The notes under the pieces are model-generated. The model did no database searches and was not told the origin of the DNA. It worked only from the letters and a program-made list of their open reading frames with translations. From positions 124,001-188,000 of the forward strand of contig NZ_JAEHJZ010000010.1 of the NCBI RefSeq assembly GCF_016469035.1: a stretch of 64,000 nt of DNA. The letters run 5' to 3'. The stretch is from Gelidibacter salicanalis. Lineage in GTDB: Bacteria > Bacteroidota > Bacteroidia > Flavobacteriales > Flavobacteriaceae. The translations under genes and the position numbers were made by a program. Numbering within the stretch: the first letter of the stretch is position 1; each line of letters opens with the position of its first letter. This document shows positions 2,716 through 48,102 of this stretch, piece by piece.

Positions 2716-4767
2716 ATGGCATTACCACTTTATAATTCTAAATATTACCATCGTGATCTCTCTTGGTTACGCTTTAATCACCGTGTGTTACAAGAGGTTG
2801 CAGACAAGAGGAATCCGTTGTATGAACGTATAAAGTTCATGGCCATTTTTTCATCTAATTTAGATGAGTTTTTTAGGGTTCGAGTTTCAGATATTAGACA
2901 AGTTAAGGATTTGGACAAATCGCTTCGTAAAAAATTGGTTACTAAACCCAATCGCGTTCTCGCCGAAATTAAGGTGCAAGTCAATTTACTTCAGGAAGAA
3001 TTTGGACAGCTTTTTCAAAATGAAATCATTCCTGATTTAAAAAAGGAAGGCATCCATTTGATAAAATATATAAACTTTTCAGAAAGTCAGAAAAAAGTGG
3101 CTGAAGACTATTTTGAAGCTACTTTAAAAGCGAAAATCGACTTAGAAAATTCTATGTTTTCGATCAAGGATGAGGTGTTTGTAGAAAATGAAAGTTCCTA
3201 CATCACAGCGTTGGTCTCTGAAGACACCTTTCAAGTTGTTCAGATTCCTAAAGATGAACCTCGCTTTTTTGTGTTTCCAGCTGATTCCGATTCGGAAGAT
3301 AGCCAACATTATATCACCTTTATTGATGATATTATCAAATACAATTTATACAAATCACAGCCAGAACTCGATTTGTCTTATTATGCAATAAAAATCTCAA
3401 GAGATGCTGAACTTTATATTGAAGATGAGTTTTCTGGCAACTTGATGGAAAAGATCAAGGAATCACTTCCAATGCGAGAAACAGGTCAGGCAACAAGAGT
3501 TTTAATTGACCAACGCATGCCTAAGAACTTTCAAAATGTCTTAAAAAAGGCTTTGGACGTTTCGCATGTAGATGTGGTTTTAGGTGGTACTTACCATAAT
3601 TTTAAAGATTTTTTCGGATTTCCAAATCCTACAGATAAGGATTTATCTTTTAAACCCCTTCCTCCTCTTGACCATCCGGTAACATCTAAGTATGCCTCTA
3701 TGTTTGAGGCTATTGACACTAAAGACCAACTGATGCATTATCCGTATCAGACCTTTGAGCCCGTGATTAAATTGTTGGAAGAGGCTGCTGACGATCCGCA
3801 GGTGACCACCATAAAAATGACATTGTATCGTGTAGCTGAAGAGTCACGTTTAAATAATGCTATAGCCAAAGCCGCAAAAAACGGCAAAAAAGTGATTATT
3901 TTCATTGAAGTGAAAGCCCGTTTTGACGAACATAACAATTTGAAGTGGGGTGAAATTTTTAAAGAAAATGGCGCTCAGGTATTGTACAGTTACCCAGGCA
4001 TTAAAGTGCATTCTAAAATTTTGTATATAGAACGTCAAGTAGCTGAAGAGCTGAAACCCTATTGCTATATAGGAACGGGTAATTTTAACGAAAAAACCTC
4101 TACACTCTATACCGATTTTGGTTTGATGACTAACAACAAAAAGATCACAGAGGATCTTAACAAATTGTTTTTAGTACTTGAAGGAATATTCCTAGTTCCA
4201 AAAGCAAAAAAACTATTGGTATCTCCATTTACCATGCGTAATAAATTTGTGAGTTTGGTGGAAAAGGAAATCCACTTAGCCCAGGCAGGTAAAGAAGCAT
4301 ACATCATTTTGAAGATGAATAGTCTTGAAGACAAAAAAATGATCAAGCTACTTTATGAGGCCAGCAACAAAGGGGTGAAAATCCAGTTATTGATAAGAGG
4401 CATGTGCAGTTTGGTACCTGGCATCAAAGGGCAGAGTAAAAACATAAAGGTGACCAGTATTTTGGATCGCTTTTTAGAACACGGCCGGGTCTATATTTTT
4501 GGCAATGCAGGCGATGAAAAAATGTATATTGGCTCAGCTGACTGGATGACACGTAATTTAACGCATCGTATTGAGGTGGTAACGCCCGTTTTGGATCCCG
4601 ACAACTTTAAAATAATAAGAGATGTTATCGACATCCAATTGGCCGATACCGTCAAGGCTCGTATTATTGATGCAGAACAGACTAACCAGTATGTAAAGCT
4701 TGGCAAGAAACCTGAAGTACGCTCACAATATGAGATTTACGAATATTTCAAGATGATGAAATCGTAG
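2716..4767 (+). CDS. ppk1: polyphosphate kinase 1
   Basis: 683 residues, matching the usual PPK1 length (about 690). It reversibly transfers the gamma phosphate of ATP to polyphosphate. It has the N-terminal helical domain (DLSWLRFNHRVLQEV at residues 14-28) and the two C-terminal phospholipase-D-like domains. The autophosphorylated histidine of the family is most likely His432 in KVHSKILYIER, followed by GTGNFNEKTSTLYTDFGL and, in the last domain, MYIGSADWMTRNLTHRIEV. It is monocistronic, with its own promoter-like site and a strong terminator at 4821. Its neighbourhood also holds two pyrophosphatases. Confidence 0.97.
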   Translation: MALPLYNSKYYHRDLSWLRFNHRVLQEVADKRNPLYERIKFMAIFSSNLDEFFRVRVSDIRQVKDLDKSLRKKLVTKPNRVLAEIKVQVNLLQEEFGQLFQNEIIPDLKKEGIHLIKYINFSESQKKVAEDYFEATLKAKIDLENSMFSIKDEVFVENESSYITALVSEDTFQVVQIPKDEPRFFVFPADSDSEDSQHYITFIDDIIKYNLYKSQPELDLSYYAIKISRDAELYIEDEFSGNLMEKIKESLPMRETGQATRVLIDQRMPKNFQNVLKKALDVSHVDVVLGGTYHNFKDFFGFPNPTDKDLSFKPLPPLDHPVTSKYASMFEAIDTKDQLMHYPYQTFEPVIKLLEEAADDPQVTTIKMTLYRVAEESRLNNAIAKAAKNGKKVIIFIEVKARFDEHNNLKWGEIFKENGAQVLYSYPGIKVHSKILYIERQVAEELKPYCYIGTGNFNEKTSTLYTDFGLMTNNKKITEDLNKLFLVLEGIFLVPKAKKLLVSPFTMRNKFVSLVEKEIHLAQAGKEAYIILKMNSLEDKKMIKLLYEASNKGVKIQLLIRGMCSLVPGIKGQSKNIKVTSILDRFLEHGRVYIFGNAGDEKMYIGSADWMTRNLTHRIEVVTPVLDPDNFKIIRDVIDIQLADTVKARIIDAEQTNQYVKLGKKPEVRSQYEIYEYFKMMKS

Positions 4768-7279: not shown

Positions 7280-7300
7280 ATTAAGAATTATATTACAAAT

Positions 7301-7554
7301 TATGTTTGTTCAATAAAGAATTAAGATCCTACCTCGCCGGCCGGCAGGCGCTTCGGTTTTAGTCCCGAGCTATCGGGAAAAGAACAAAGATTTGATTATA
7401 ATTAACCGATAAACAATCGTCATACAAAATTAAATTCGACCAATCACTCTCAGTGAGATTAGTTAAAGAAAGCATAGTATCATTTTTAAGATTTCGCACC
7501 ACATCTTGCTTGAACAGACTGTAAACTCCTCACTTATTTAACCGGACAGTCATG
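7301..7554 (+). mobile_element. MITE-like element, copy A (254 bp)
   Basis: This stretch aligns end to end with the copies at 21489, 28824 and 40177. It has the landmark CAATAAAGAATTAAGATC near its left end, then a GC-rich palindrome (CGCCGGCCGGCAGGCG), AGTCCCGAGCTATCGGGAAA, CCAATCACTCTCAGTGA, and a right end reading ACCGGACAGTCATG. The flanks are ATTACAAAT (7292-7300) and ACGACAAAT (7555-7563), a 7/9 direct repeat compatible with a decayed 9-bp target duplication. It accounts for most of the 346-bp gap between the DUF4010 gene and hppA. No intact protein is encoded. Confidence 0.75.
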
Positions 7555-7571
7555 ACGACAAATCATGTGTA

Positions 7572-14796: not shown

Positions 14797-14814
14797 TCCC
14801 GATAGCTATCGGGA
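14797..14814. repeat. isolated copy of the palindrome TCCCGATAGCTATCGGGA
   Basis: A perfect 18-bp palindrome, nearly identical to the internal palindrome of the MITE-like elements at 7301, 21489, 28824 and 40177, but without the rest of the element. It sits between the pdhB stop and its terminator. Confidence 0.7.
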
Positions 14815-21475: not shown

Positions 21476-21488
21476 CTAATTATTTGAT

Positions 21489-21725
21489 CATCAGTGTCCG
21501 GTAAAACAGGTGAAAAGTTTGCAAATCTCCTTAAAGCATGATCTGGTTCGAGAACTTAAAAATGGCAACTTGTTTTTGAAACCAATTTCACTTAGAGTGA
21601 TTGGGCAAATTTAATTTAGAGTAACGGCTGTTTATCAGTCAGTTACGATCAAGTCTTTGTTCTTTTCCCGATAGTTATCGGGACTATAAGCGCAGCGATC
21701 TTAATTCTTTATCGGACAATAATGT
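21489..21725 (-). mobile_element. MITE-like element, copy B (237 bp), with perfect 9-bp target duplication
   Basis: This is the best-preserved copy, inverted relative to the other three clear copies. The ends are CATCAGTGTCCGGTAAA (left) and, on the opposite strand, CATTATTGTCCGATAAA (right); 14 of 17 positions agree. The 9-bp sequence TTATTTGAT occurs directly outside both ends (21480-21488 and 21726-21734), a perfect target-site duplication. Inside are CCCGATAGTTATCGGG and a 41-codon open frame running from the left end to a stop at 21612-21614. No complete transposase is present. Confidence 0.85.
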
Positions 21726-21741
21726 TATTTGATAAAGGTGA

Positions 21742-28823: not shown

Positions 28824-29051
28824 CATTATTGTCCGATAAAGAATTAAGATCGCTGCGCTTATAGTCCCGATGGCTATCGGGAAAAGAACAAAGACTTGAT
28901 TGTAACTGAATGATAAACAGTCGTTATTCTAAATTAAATTTGCCCAATCACTCTAAGTGAAATTGGCTTCAAAAACAAGGTGTCATTTTTGAGATCTCGC
29001 ACCAGGTCATGTTTTAATGGGGTTTGCAAACTGTTTTACCCGACACAGATG
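28824..29051 (+). mobile_element. MITE-like element, copy C (228 bp)
   Basis: Left end CATTATTGTCCGATAAAG; right end, read on the opposite strand, CATCTGTGTCGGGTAAAA. The interior matches copies B and D closely (AAGATCGCTGCGCTTATAGT, CCCGATGGCTATCGGG, CCAATCACTCTAAGTGAAAT). No clean flanking duplication is visible: AAACTCTAT lies on the left and ATAAAACCA on the right. It fills most of the 302-bp gap between the FAD oxidoreductase and acetyltransferase genes. A short deletion near the right end breaks the residual reading frame. Confidence 0.8.
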
Positions 29052-37459: not shown

Positions 37460-40072
37460 TTATGCCCGTTTCTTTTTCAGCAACATACGTTTAATCTCAT
37501 TCAACTTCATGAGGGCCTCAACGGGCGTCAATACGTCAATGTCAAGATTTACAATTTCTTCCTTAATTTGTTCTAAAAGAGGATCATCCAAATTAAAAAA
37601 GCTCAACTGCATATCATTCTCGAGTGTTTTTACCTTATTGGTCAACTCTTCACTGCTATGGGATTTTTCCAACTGCTTCAAAATTTTATTCGCCCTATGG
37701 ATGACTTGTTGTGGCATTCCTGCCATTTTAGCAACGTGAATACCAAAACTATGTTCACTACCCCCTTCAACCAACTTTCTTAAGAACAGTACATTATTTT
37801 TTAACTCCTTTACAGAGACATTGAAATTTTTAATGCGCGAAAAGGTTTCGGTCATTTCATTTAACTCGTGGTAATGTGTCGCAAATAAGGTTTTTGCCTT
37901 ACTTGGATGCTCGTGCAAATACTCGCTAATGGCCCAAGCAATAGAAATCCCATCATAGGTACTTGTACCCCGACCAATTTCATCTAGCAGCACTAAACTG
38001 CGGTCAGAAATATTGTTCAAAATGGAAGCCGTCTCGTTCATTTCAACCATAAAGGTCGATTCGCCCATCGAAATATTATCGCTGGCCCCTACTCTGGTAA
38101 AAATCTTATCAGTCAATCCTATTGTAGCAGCATCCGCAGGAACAAAACTTCCCATTTGCGCCAATAAGACAATCAATGCAGTTTGCCGTAAAATAGCCGA
38201 CTTACCAGACATGTTAGGTCCCGTAATCATAATGATTTGCTGCTGCTCCCTATCTAAATAAAGATCATTGGCAATATAAGGCTCGCCATGTGGTAATTGC
38301 TTTTCAATAACGGGATGCCTTCCGTTTTTAATTTCCAGCGTATAGCTTTCGTTAATTTCCGGACGTGCGTACTTATTGTCATACGCCAATTGCGCAAAGC
38401 CACATAAACAATCCAATTGCGCTATAAGGGCCGAATTTTTTTGTACAGGTTTGATAAACTGACCAATCCACAGTACCAATTCAGAAAACAATTGCTGCTC
38501 AATCGCCAATATGCGCTCTTCAGCGCCTAGTATTTTGGTTTCGTATTCTTTCAGCTCTTCAGTAATATAACGCTCTGCACTTACCAAAGTCTGTTTCCTG
38601 ATCCAATGCGCTGGCACCTTATCTTTATGGGTATGGCGCACTTCTATATAATATCCAAACACATTATTGGAGGCTATTTTAAGCGAGGTGATGCCCGTTA
38701 GCTTACTTTCACGATCCAACATGGCATCCAAATAATCTTTACCTGATGTAGACAACGCTCTCAGGTCTTTTAGTTCTGCAGAAAAATCAGAAGCAATGGT
38801 ATTTCCTTTTAAAATATTGACCGGCGCTTCTTCATTTAAAGTGGCTTTTATGCGTTGGCGCAATTCTTCACAAAGTTCCAAGCTGTTCCCAATATGCTGC
38901 AGTGCCTTATTATTAGTGTTTTGCGTAAGTGTTTTTATAGGTACAATCGCTTCCAATGCGTTTTTTAACTGTACCACTTCCCTTGGACTAATTTTAACCG
39001 TTGCTACTTTAGAAATAAGACGCTCAATATCGCCAATATGCTTGATCTGATTTTGAATTTTCTTTAAAACAATAGCATCATCATAAAGATATTGCACCAC
39101 TTCATGCCGCTGATTGATCTTATCAATGCTAATGAGTGGCAATGCCAACCAACGTTTCAACAAACGGCCTCCCATAGGTGAAATGGTCCTGTCGATAACA
39201 TCTATCAGCGTTACAGCATTTTGATTGTACGATTGGTAAAGTTCCAGGTTTTTAATGGTAAAGCGATCCATCCACACATGGTCATTTTGTGTAACGCGCT
39301 GAATGGTGGTAATATGTTGTAATTTATGGTGCTGTGTTTCACTTAAATAATGCAAAACAGCTCCTGCCGCGACAATGCCTTCAAACAAATCTTCAATTCC
39401 AAACCCCTTTAACGATTTGGTTTGAAAATGCTTGAGCAAGGTTTCTGTAGCATAATCGTCCTGAAACACCCAATCCTCCATAAAGAACGTATGGAACTCA
39501 TTACCAAACATAGTTTTAAACTCATTCCGCTTAGGCTTTGACACCAACACTTCACTAGGCCTAAAATTTTGGAGCAACTTATCAATATATTCAGAATTAC
39601 CTTGAGACACTAAAAACTCGCCTGTTGAAACATCTAAAAAGGCAACGCCAACTTGATTTTTACCAAAACAGACGGCTGCTAAAAAGTTGTTGGATTTGGA
39701 GTGCAGGATATCATCATTTAAAGCGACACCTGGCGTTACTAATTCTGTAACACCCCGTTTTACGATGGTTTTGGTTTGCTTAGGGTCTTCCAACTGATCA
39801 CATATAGCGACCCGGCATCCTGCCTTTACTAATTTAGGTAGATAGTTGTTCAGAGAGTGGTGTGGAAATCCTGCCAATTCAATTTCACTTTCACTTCCTG
39901 CACCTCGTTTGGTTAGAATAATGTCCAATATTTTGGAGGCTTTTACCGCATCTTCCCCAAAGGTTTCATAAAAATCGCCCACTCTAAAAAGCAATAAAGC
40001 GTCAGGATACTTTGCTTTAATAGCATTGTACTGTTTCATTAACGGGGTTTCTTTTTTTACGTTCTTAGCCAA
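37460..40072 (-). CDS. mutS: DNA mismatch repair protein MutS
   Basis: 870 residues, full length. It recognises mismatches and small loops and signals to MutL. The mismatch-binding Phe-x-Glu-like motif is in [14 protein letters not shown] (about residues 29-42). The ATPase core shows Walker [26 protein letters not shown], Walker [17 protein letters not shown] and the ATHYHEL signature. The C-terminal dimerisation helices end KKKRA. It is a single gene flanked by tRNAs downstream and a mobile repeat upstream. Confidence 0.98.
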
Positions 40073-40176
40073 TGGATTTCTGTTTTAAGTGGTATTTTTG
40101 CCCTAAATATCAGGATCGCTAAGGTACTTATAATTTGAAGGTTTGGAAAATGGAGACCTTAATATTTATTTACAAT
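40073..40176. other. gap upstream of mutS, left of mobile repeat copy D
   Basis: 104 bases of AT-rich sequence that must contain the mutS promoter. I see no consensus -7 box. The rest of the 435-bp mutS-trmH gap is occupied by mobile repeat copy D. Confidence 0.5.
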
Positions 40177-40434
40177 TGGTATTGTCCAATAAAGAACTAA
40201 GACCCTGCCTCGCCGGCAGGCAGGCGCTACGCTTATAGTCCCGATGGCTATCGGGAAAGGAACAAAGATTTAATTATAACTGACTGACTGACAATCGTTA
40301 TTATAAAAGAAATTTGTCCAATCACTCTAAGTAACATTGGTTTCAAAAAGCAAGGTATCATTTTTAAAATCTCGTAGCACATCTTGCTTTGATAGGATTG
40401 GTAAACTTTTTATTTTTTTCATCGAACACTCATG
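40177..40434 (+). mobile_element. MITE-like element, copy D (258 bp), with near-perfect 9-bp duplication
   Basis: It aligns end to end with copies A-C: left end TGGTATTGTCCAATAAAG, a GC-rich internal palindrome (CCTGCCTCGCCGGCAGGCAGG), CCCGATGGCTATCGGG, CCAATCACTCTAAGTAACAT, and right end CGAACACTCATG. Flanks ATTTACAAT (40168-40176) and ATTTACAAA (40435-40443) agree at 8 of 9 positions, as expected for a target duplication. On the minus strand, the residual frame encodes KSLPILSKQDVLRDFKNDTL, homologous to that of copy B. Confidence 0.82.
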
Positions 40435-40507
40435 ATTTACAAATAATACAAAAATAAGAGTCACAATACATGAAATTCGTGCATCTGGGGCAAAAACAAT
40501 CACTGAC

Positions 40508-41044
40508 ATGCGAAAACTAAAAAATAGCGAACTCGACCGATTAAGCGTTGACGAATTTAAAAGTAAGGACAAAACACCACTTATTATTGTTTTGGACAAT
40601 ATTAGAAGCTTAAACAATATTGGCTCTGTTTTCAGAACGAGCGATGCTTTTTTGGTTGAAAAAATTTATCTGTGTGGCATTACAGCAACACCCCCTCATA
40701 AAGACATTCATAAGACCGCGTTGGGAAGTACAGAAACGGTAGCTTGGGAATATGCAGAAAACACCATGGAGGTTATTGAAGAATTAAAATCCGAAGGGAT
40801 AATTGTTGCCGCTATAGAACAAGCTGAAAACGCAACCATGCTTAACGAATTCCAACCTGAACGAAATCAAAAATACGCCTTGGTTTTTGGGAACGAAGTT
40901 AAGGGTGTGGCTCAACAAGTGGTCAGTGCCAGTGATGTCATTTTAGAAATTCCGCAATTCGGAACCAAACACTCGTTGAACATCTCAGTGAGTTGTGGGG
41001 TGGTAGTTTGGGATATTTTTGCGAAGATGAACGTTGGGCATTAA
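40508..41044 (+). CDS. SpoU/TrmH-family RNA 2'-O-methyltransferase
   Basis: 178 residues. It uses S-adenosylmethionine to methylate a ribose in tRNA or rRNA. All three SpoU motifs are present: VLDNIRSLNNIGSVFRTSDAF with the catalytic Asn/Arg, YALVFGNEVKGV, and IPQFGTKHSLNISVSCGVVVWD. At this size it lacks the N-terminal L30-like domain of RlmB, so it is closer to small TrmH- or TrmL-like enzymes. The target nucleotide is unknown. Confidence 0.9.
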   Translation: MRKLKNSELDRLSVDEFKSKDKTPLIIVLDNIRSLNNIGSVFRTSDAFLVEKIYLCGITATPPHKDIHKTALGSTETVAWEYAENTMEVIEELKSEGIIVAAIEQAENATMLNEFQPERNQKYALVFGNEVKGVAQQVVSASDVILEIPQFGTKHSLNISVSCGVVVWDIFAKMNVGH

Positions 41045-47866: not shown

Positions 47867-48102
47867 TATTATTGTCCGATTAAAATTTCATCCGCCTTCT
47901 AAGAATATAGACTAATAGAAGTTTTTCTGTGTTTTGTTCGTTAATGTGCTCATTTTTATTTTTTTTTGAAAATATTAACAAAACAATATAATTCCAGATA
48001 GTTATAAATCTTAACACCTATGTTTTCAGCACTCAACGAGTGATGTCTCGGTTCTTGGTTCTAACAGCGAAGCGGTCTTGATTCTTTTCCCAGACAATAT
48101 TG
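47867..48102 (-). mobile_element. decayed relative of the MITE-like family (copy E)
   Basis: It is bounded by TATTATTGTCCGATTAAA (47867) and, on the opposite strand from 48102, CAATATTGTCTGGGAAAAGA. The next bases of that end (ATCAAGACCGCTTCGCTGTTAG) match the family's left end (ATTAAGATCGCTGCGCTTATAG). At 236 bp it has the family size, but the interior is unrelated or too diverged to align. No target duplication is seen. It fills most of the 317-bp gap between the DUF2797 and GH3 genes. Confidence 0.5.

Follow-up and report, generated by a model that had tools for sequence, protein, structure and literature searches.

A family of short repeats in the window

The window analysed here is a stretch of 64,000 nucleotides (C2:124001-188000) from the draft genome of Gelidibacter salicanalis, which amounts to 5.16 Mb in 682 pieces. 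A protein encoded at 2716-4767 shows 92% identity to proteins of G. salicanalis and G. sediminis, in keeping with a Gelidibacter (Flavobacteriaceae) host. The window holds four copies, A to D, of a non-coding element that measures about 210-260 bp across copies and is bounded by imperfect 17-bp inverted repeats, the left end being CATTATTGTCCGATAAA and the right end, reversed, CATCAGTGTCCGGTAAA. The copies, their flanking duplications and one further relic are as follows (strand where one applies).

7292-7300, left target duplication of A, ATTACAAAT, matching the right one at 7/9 positions
7301-7554, plus strand, element copy A, 254 bp, diverged
7555-7563, right target duplication of A, ACGACAAAT
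21480-21488, target duplication of B, TTATTTGAT
21489-21724, minus strand, element copy B, 236 bp, in reverse orientation
21725-21733, target duplication of B, TTATTTGAT, perfect copy
28824-29051, plus strand, element copy C, 228 bp, without target duplication at its ends
40168-40176, left target duplication of D, ATTTACAAT, matching at 8/9 positions
40177-40434, plus strand, element copy D, 258 bp, in the intergenic gap between divergent ORFs
40435-40443, right target duplication of D, ATTTACAAA
48051-48100, minus strand, probably what is left of the left half of an element from a second subfamily (GAATCAAGACCGCTTCGCTGTTAG type), weak profile match of 20.5 bits

The original prediction held that the four regions align over their whole length and stop at common ends. 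This was correct once B had been reverse-complemented, as unreversed B does not fit, and with one correction: base 21725 is the first of the duplication TTATTTGAT, so that B ends at 21724 and not at 21725. The predicted 17-bp inverted ends were recovered both by this alignment and across the genome copies, and a recount of the flanking repeats returned the figures given before (B 9/9, D 8/9, A 7/9). The flanks of C match at 2/9 positions, which leaves this copy with no target duplication. A profile of 57 complete copies matched A to D and, weakly, the half-relic at 48051-48100 (E up to 1e-3). Read on the minus strand, the relic shows the left half of the second subfamily, AAAGAATCAAGACCGCTTCGCTGTTAGAACCAAGAAC, with its end decayed. 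A stringent end search, with TGTCCG fixed, at most five mismatches between the ends and at most one in the duplication, retrieved B alone, A, C and D failing it; applied to 20 mononucleotide-shuffled windows, the same search gave zero matches.

As predicted, the copies contain no transposase gene, since the sole listed ORF of at least 80 aa overlapping any of them (40327-40617, minus strand) starts outside D and looks spurious. A short element with terminal inverted repeats and no transposase gene has the make-up of a MITE. A and C each adjoin a stop codon, and B is flanked by convergent ORFs and located 3' of a terminator-like site, in line with the earlier claim that all copies sit near stops or terminators; the claim fails for D, which occupies the gap between the divergent ORFs 37460-40072 (minus) and 40508-41044 (plus) and hence lies between two starts.

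Copy number and divergence

The whole-genome search proposed with the prediction placed the element at about 85 distinct sites in the 5.16-Mb draft, many with the same ends and 9-bp duplications, and both ends were spanned in 65 of them. These places are profile matches on fetched stretches, mapped onto genome coordinates, and the counts are lower bounds, because the best 40 of 126 and the best 40 of 136 candidates were scored. A left-end pattern occurred at 71 genome sites with at most three mismatches (reversed control pattern, 0) and a right-end pattern at 68 sites with at most two (control, 0); comparing all 71 left ends and 13 of the 68 right ends with the 85 places yielded seven end-pattern sites at six more places. 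Two loci near contig ends, L142 and L144 (G000:C574 and C45), each show two adjoining elements, which face opposite ways in L142 and point the same way in L144.

Pairwise identity among 57 copies free of N had a median of 83%, and identity to the nearest neighbour had a median of 93% and a maximum of 98%. Given these nearest-neighbour values, few copies look recent, and most insertions appear to be old. By crude ORF calling, 18 of 60 copies lie between tandem genes, 13 between convergent and seven between divergent ones, with 22 unassigned. The same crude calling gave a mild excess of neighbouring stops facing the element's right end (27/38), on which we do not rely.

Target duplications of fixed length

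Duplication statistics were taken from the 60 copies in which both ends and their flanks are present (N occurs in three), and the expectation was obtained by permuting flanks among copies. Perfect 9-bp duplications flank 25 copies (0.06 expected) and duplications with exactly one mismatch another 10 (1.01 expected), so that 35 of the 60 have at most one mismatch, compared with 1.07 expected; the other 25, C included, have two or more. At length 9 the flanks had a mean identity of 0.79, compared with 0.34-0.48 for lengths of 5-8 and 10-13, and at any length from 5 to 13 other than 9 the flanks matched perfectly in two copies at most. The element thus shows the fixed-length target duplications of a MITE, at 9 bp. 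The 35 best targets, with at most one mismatch, are 91% A+T compared with 67% in their flanks, and their preference reads approximately ATTTAAAAT.

Element-free sites and copies in relatives

Element-free orthologous sites, whose absence would have spoken against transposition, do occur: at A, B and D no full copy was present in relatives with both flanks. At site A this applies to all eight named Gelidibacter loci. In six of them the interval differs from the window flanks by -8 to -11 bp, near the -9 expected for one duplication copy less, and L062 has a different insertion nearby (interval 100). In L059 (G. salicanalis) the site spans 72 bp, which by eye comprise the right flank and a degraded right end, for which the profile reported no match. 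Given this apparent relic, copy A may predate the split from L059. For sites B, C and D, nine relatives were fetched each. Both flanks of B were present in eight of them, with the element in none, at a divergence too high for a base-exact interval. Both flanks of D were present in all nine, again without the element, and the interval of -9 bp in G007 agrees with a site that has only one of the two duplication copies. At C both flanks were found in 3/9 relatives with no element by profile, and these flanks are too diverged for a precise statement. Together with the 85 dispersed places, the element-free sites at A, B and D are what a MITE family should show.

Copies in related genomes keep the same boundaries, many of them with 9-bp duplications, as the prediction had demanded. 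Matches to copy B (E up to 1e-5) were found in nine of 10 genomes of the genus, its own included, and many were partial. G007 has at least 40 (best 40 of 92 candidates scored), the seven other matching relatives have 1-7 each, and G009 gave no match at this threshold. Among 16 near-complete copies from relatives, the 9-bp duplication is perfect in five and has one mismatch in four, and two pairs of elements appear to be insertions common to G003 and G006. In the wider family, with two candidates scored per genome, 8 of 397 genomes in six genera matched, own genome included (E up to 1e-6). Five genomes outside the genus supplied nine loci for comparison. Five elements, from three genera (G133, G228, G264), have both ends, four with perfect duplications and one with 8/9; the four loci of G284 and G165 had no pair of ends. 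The interior core described below, together with a TIR-like left side, is present in L078 (Marixanthomonas) and L132 (Christiangramia), both of which lack a convincing right end or duplication. Searches of plasmids and phages returned no match to copy B.

An IS4-family insertion sequence with matching ends

The prediction had not recognised a parent family and suggested a search for a full-length insertion sequence (IS) with the same ends; such an IS is resident in the genome. The only DUF4372 gene of the genome lies within a 1386-bp IS at G000:C1:207965-209350, which is bounded by CATTGTTGTCCGATAAA and CATTAATGTCCGATAAA and whose transposase frame runs uninterrupted for 407 codons. Its product carries DDE_Tnp_1 (PF01609) and DUF4372 domains, scores 209 bits against the NCBIfam IS4 model (NF033592; cut-off 115) and contains, read by eye in YKIRWQIELLFKQLK, the YREK motif Y-x2-R-x3-E-x6-K; a DDE transposase with this motif places the IS in the IS4 family. 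The left end of the majority subfamily of elements matches that of the resident IS at 16/17 positions and the right end at 14/17, and in the second subfamily (L155, L163) the left end is identical to that of the IS. The resident copy has no target duplication of its own (flanks atttagttt and ataatgaat).

Relatives of the resident transposase (E up to 1e-30) are present in 20 of the 397 family genomes, own included. We scanned 36 IS loci, some of them fragments, for inverted ends and duplications. Five (L265, L266, L267, L273, L286) have CANTNNTGTCC-type (TGTCC-type) ends and exact 9-bp duplications, and L268 has 8/9; in L276 and L289 the duplications are exact but the end sequences differ, and L269, L271 and L283 have inverted ends without a clear duplication. 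Most of the 36 gave no convincing pair of ends with a duplication. The 9-bp length for this type of IS is thus known from the copies of relatives, the resident one showing none. G001 has five IS copies at 93% identity, and where both flanks were readable no copy had a duplication of its own. The left flank of L213 in G001 equals the right flank of L219 (gttctaaat), which suggests IS-mediated recombination or rearrangement, or a misassembly.

Table 1 of De Palmenaer et al. (PMC2266710) gives the IS4Sa subgroup CA------T ends, a length of 1150-1750 bp and duplications of 8-10 bp. By these tabulated features the resident IS fits in size (1386 bp) and in its ends, which agree with CA------T at positions 1, 2 and 9, and it has the YREK motif; the duplication length is supplied by its relatives, whose 9 bp fall within the 8-10 bp of the subgroup (PMC2266710). 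Assigned from the ends, size and duplications of Table 1 alone, the parent IS appears IS4Sa-like. The element itself differs from IS4Sa insertion sequences in having no transposase of its own.

A shared core and two palindrome slots in the interior

Compared with the resident IS locus and 34 related loci, the element interior showed no match beyond the terminal approximately 25 bp, except for two weak ones (E 0.069 and 0.08). An internal-deletion (type I) MITE of the resident IS was thereby ruled out, the interior not being derived from it. The left half, approximately GAATYAAGAYCGCTKYGCTNTTAG...AACAAAGACTTGATTGTAACTAACTGATAAACA, is common to elements of three other genera, and the right half is much less alike between genera. 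Two slots flanking a CGCTGCGCTTATAG motif hold varying G+C-rich palindromes, in the window at the following positions.

7328-7348, plus strand, slot-1 G+C-rich palindrome in A, with 2 mismatches
21666-21683, slot-2 palindrome in B
28865-28882, slot-2 palindrome in C
40204-40224, plus strand, slot-1 G+C-rich palindrome in D
40239-40256, slot-2 palindrome in D

A census by pattern of the 57 N-free copies, two of which were unparsed, found a CCTGCC...GGCAGG-type palindrome in slot 1 of 11 copies. Slot 2 holds TCCCGAT..ATCGGGA types in 35 and CCTGCC-type palindromes in nine; in 11 more copies it is empty, has a few bases or contains an unparsed stretch. A terminator role was considered and rejected: reading along the element, A and not T comes after the slot-2 hairpin (judged by eye), and gene contexts are mixed (crude ORF calling, 22/60 unassigned). 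Elsewhere in the window, at 14797-14814, a lone perfect palindrome TCCCGATAGCTATCGGGA, the same as the slot-2 insert, lies between two ORFs, and a similar sequence context is seen in L059, L060 and L065.

The core also occurs, judged by eye, without IS4 ends. At apparently one orthologous site, beside a terminator-like hairpin, it is found in six named Gelidibacter loci (L059:2673; L060:2681 and 2704; L061:2632 and 2655; L063:2847; L065:2887; L069:2160). It is in tandem in L060 and L061, has a degenerate first copy in L059 and is accompanied by a CCTGCC/GGCAGG palindrome in L063. Further lone cores, their ends likewise judged by eye, are in L194, L196, L204, L296, L299 and L300. They may be independent repeats or eroded elements; the evidence favours, and does not settle, independent repeats, because of the tandem copies and because the core is better kept than any end. 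In viral contigs the core pattern had seven exact matches, each surrounded by at most 28 profile positions of the element.

A tentative reading, to which we give clearly less than even odds, is that the element is composite: IS4-type ends would carry an older dispersed Flavobacteriaceae core (approximately AAGACCGCTKCGCTNTTAG and the stretch downstream), whose sides may be preferred landing sites for palindromes (TCCCGATAGCTATCGGGA; CCTGCC...GGCAGG) that copies acquire, lose or exchange. On this view one repeat family would ride inside another, with the palindromes as a third mobile layer.

Identity and proposed movement

The shared ends, the duplication statistics, the element-free sites in relatives and the presence in the genome of an IS whose ends match and whose transposase frame is uninterrupted argue that the repeats are a family of MITEs belonging to the IS4 family (IS4Sa-like group) and moved by an IS4-type transposase, a reading to which we assign a probability of about 0.88. 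Movement was probably in trans, by the resident transposase or a close, perhaps lost, relative. In the proposed sequence of events, an IS4-type DDE transposase made elsewhere would bind both 17-bp ends, cut the element out and insert it at an A+T-rich 9-bp target (approximately ATTTAAAAT), and repair of the staggered cut would leave the 9-bp duplication at its flanks. Such cut-and-paste steps are established for the IS4 family. The number of elements does not track that of the IS: about 85 elements accompany one intact IS here, G001 has five IS copies and one element match, and G007 has its 40 or more element matches with a transposase fragment only (E up to 1e-10). In G007:C8, about 1.3 kb separates a related element with a perfect 9-bp duplication (L228:5035-5257) from a transposase fragment that shares 66% identity with the IS4 transposase.

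Which IS4-type transposase acted could be answered differently in a variant compatible with this reading. The mover may have been another IS4Sa-like element that has since been lost and whose ends were closer to the right end CATCAGTGTCCGGTAAAAC, the resident IS being only its cousin; we regard this as a real possibility at somewhat below even odds. The poorer match of the resident IS at the right end (14/17, against 16/17 at the left) fits such a history, as do transposase fragments of other types in the same genome (C262:30201-30476, 53%, and C284:120005-120208, 50% identity), the combination of many elements with a mere transposase fragment in G007, and the presence in the wider family of an IS with GGTAAA ends (L267). 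Against it stand the exact identity between the left ends of the second subfamily and the resident IS, and the single DUF4372 gene in the genome.

Two other readings depart from transposition by a DDE enzyme. Selection for a structured non-coding RNA or a regulatory element, with incidental duplications, is a very unlikely explanation of the repeats: the left interior shared with three other genera and the somewhat better folding of the single copy B than its shuffles (z -2.57) would suit it, but D folds no better than shuffles (z -0.49), and 51 aligned copies show no consensus structure on either strand, an analysis that excluded alignment columns with gaps in at least half of the copies and so tested the slot hairpins poorly. 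No Rfam family lies at the element places, the window matches at gathering scores being two tRNAs only, and the mixed gene contexts across 60 copies (crude ORF calling), the sharp ends with 9-bp duplications and the element-free sites in relatives likewise speak against selection for such a role. REP-type palindromic repeats spread by a single-strand (RAYT) transposase are brought to mind by the G+C-rich palindromes, those of slot 2 adjoining a TAG; as an account of the whole element this is barely credible, for it is 210-260 bp long with 9-bp duplications and not a 20-40 bp palindrome without duplication. Long inverted ends together with 9-bp duplications point to movement by a DDE enzyme and not by a RAYT. 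A REP/RAYT origin could fit the inner palindromes, not the element as a whole.

As a MITE family of the IS4 family, the element adds an ordinary new case to a class of parasitic DNA that is well known, and only the nested core and the palindrome slots are unusual. Among the titles and abstract openings searched in the open literature, we found no prior description of it or of any MITE in Gelidibacter. A parent IS family can now be named for a high-copy MITE, and the set of 60 copies makes the target preference of a DUF4372-carrying IS4-type transposase readable from its duplications. The shared interior core with its palindrome slots also offers a testable case of nested small repeats in the Flavobacteriaceae.

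Comparison with known systems

MITEAba12 of Acinetobacter, related to ISAba12, is likewise a short A+T-rich non-coding element with 9-bp duplications, imperfect ends (16 bp) and a parent inferred from shared ends (PMC6382973). It is 113 bp long, was present in one copy in the wild-type strain studied and was observed to move, whereas the Gelidibacter element is 210-260 bp long, occupies about 85 places and is known here from sequence alone (PMC6382973). In copy number the closer likeness is MITECca01 of Cardinium, a Bacteroidetes endosymbiont, with 240 bp, 169 mostly intergenic copies and a resident parent, ISCca4; this parent belongs to IS982, and MITECca01 keeps a short parental sequence inside its ends, for which we found no counterpart in the Gelidibacter element (PMC9769881). 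The MITE assigned to ISHwa2 in Haloquadratum walsbyi (34 copies) differs in its archaeal host and 5-bp duplications, but according to Table 4 of PMC3852290 it shares the IS4 assignment, nearly the same length (237 bp) and the same end length of 17 bp.
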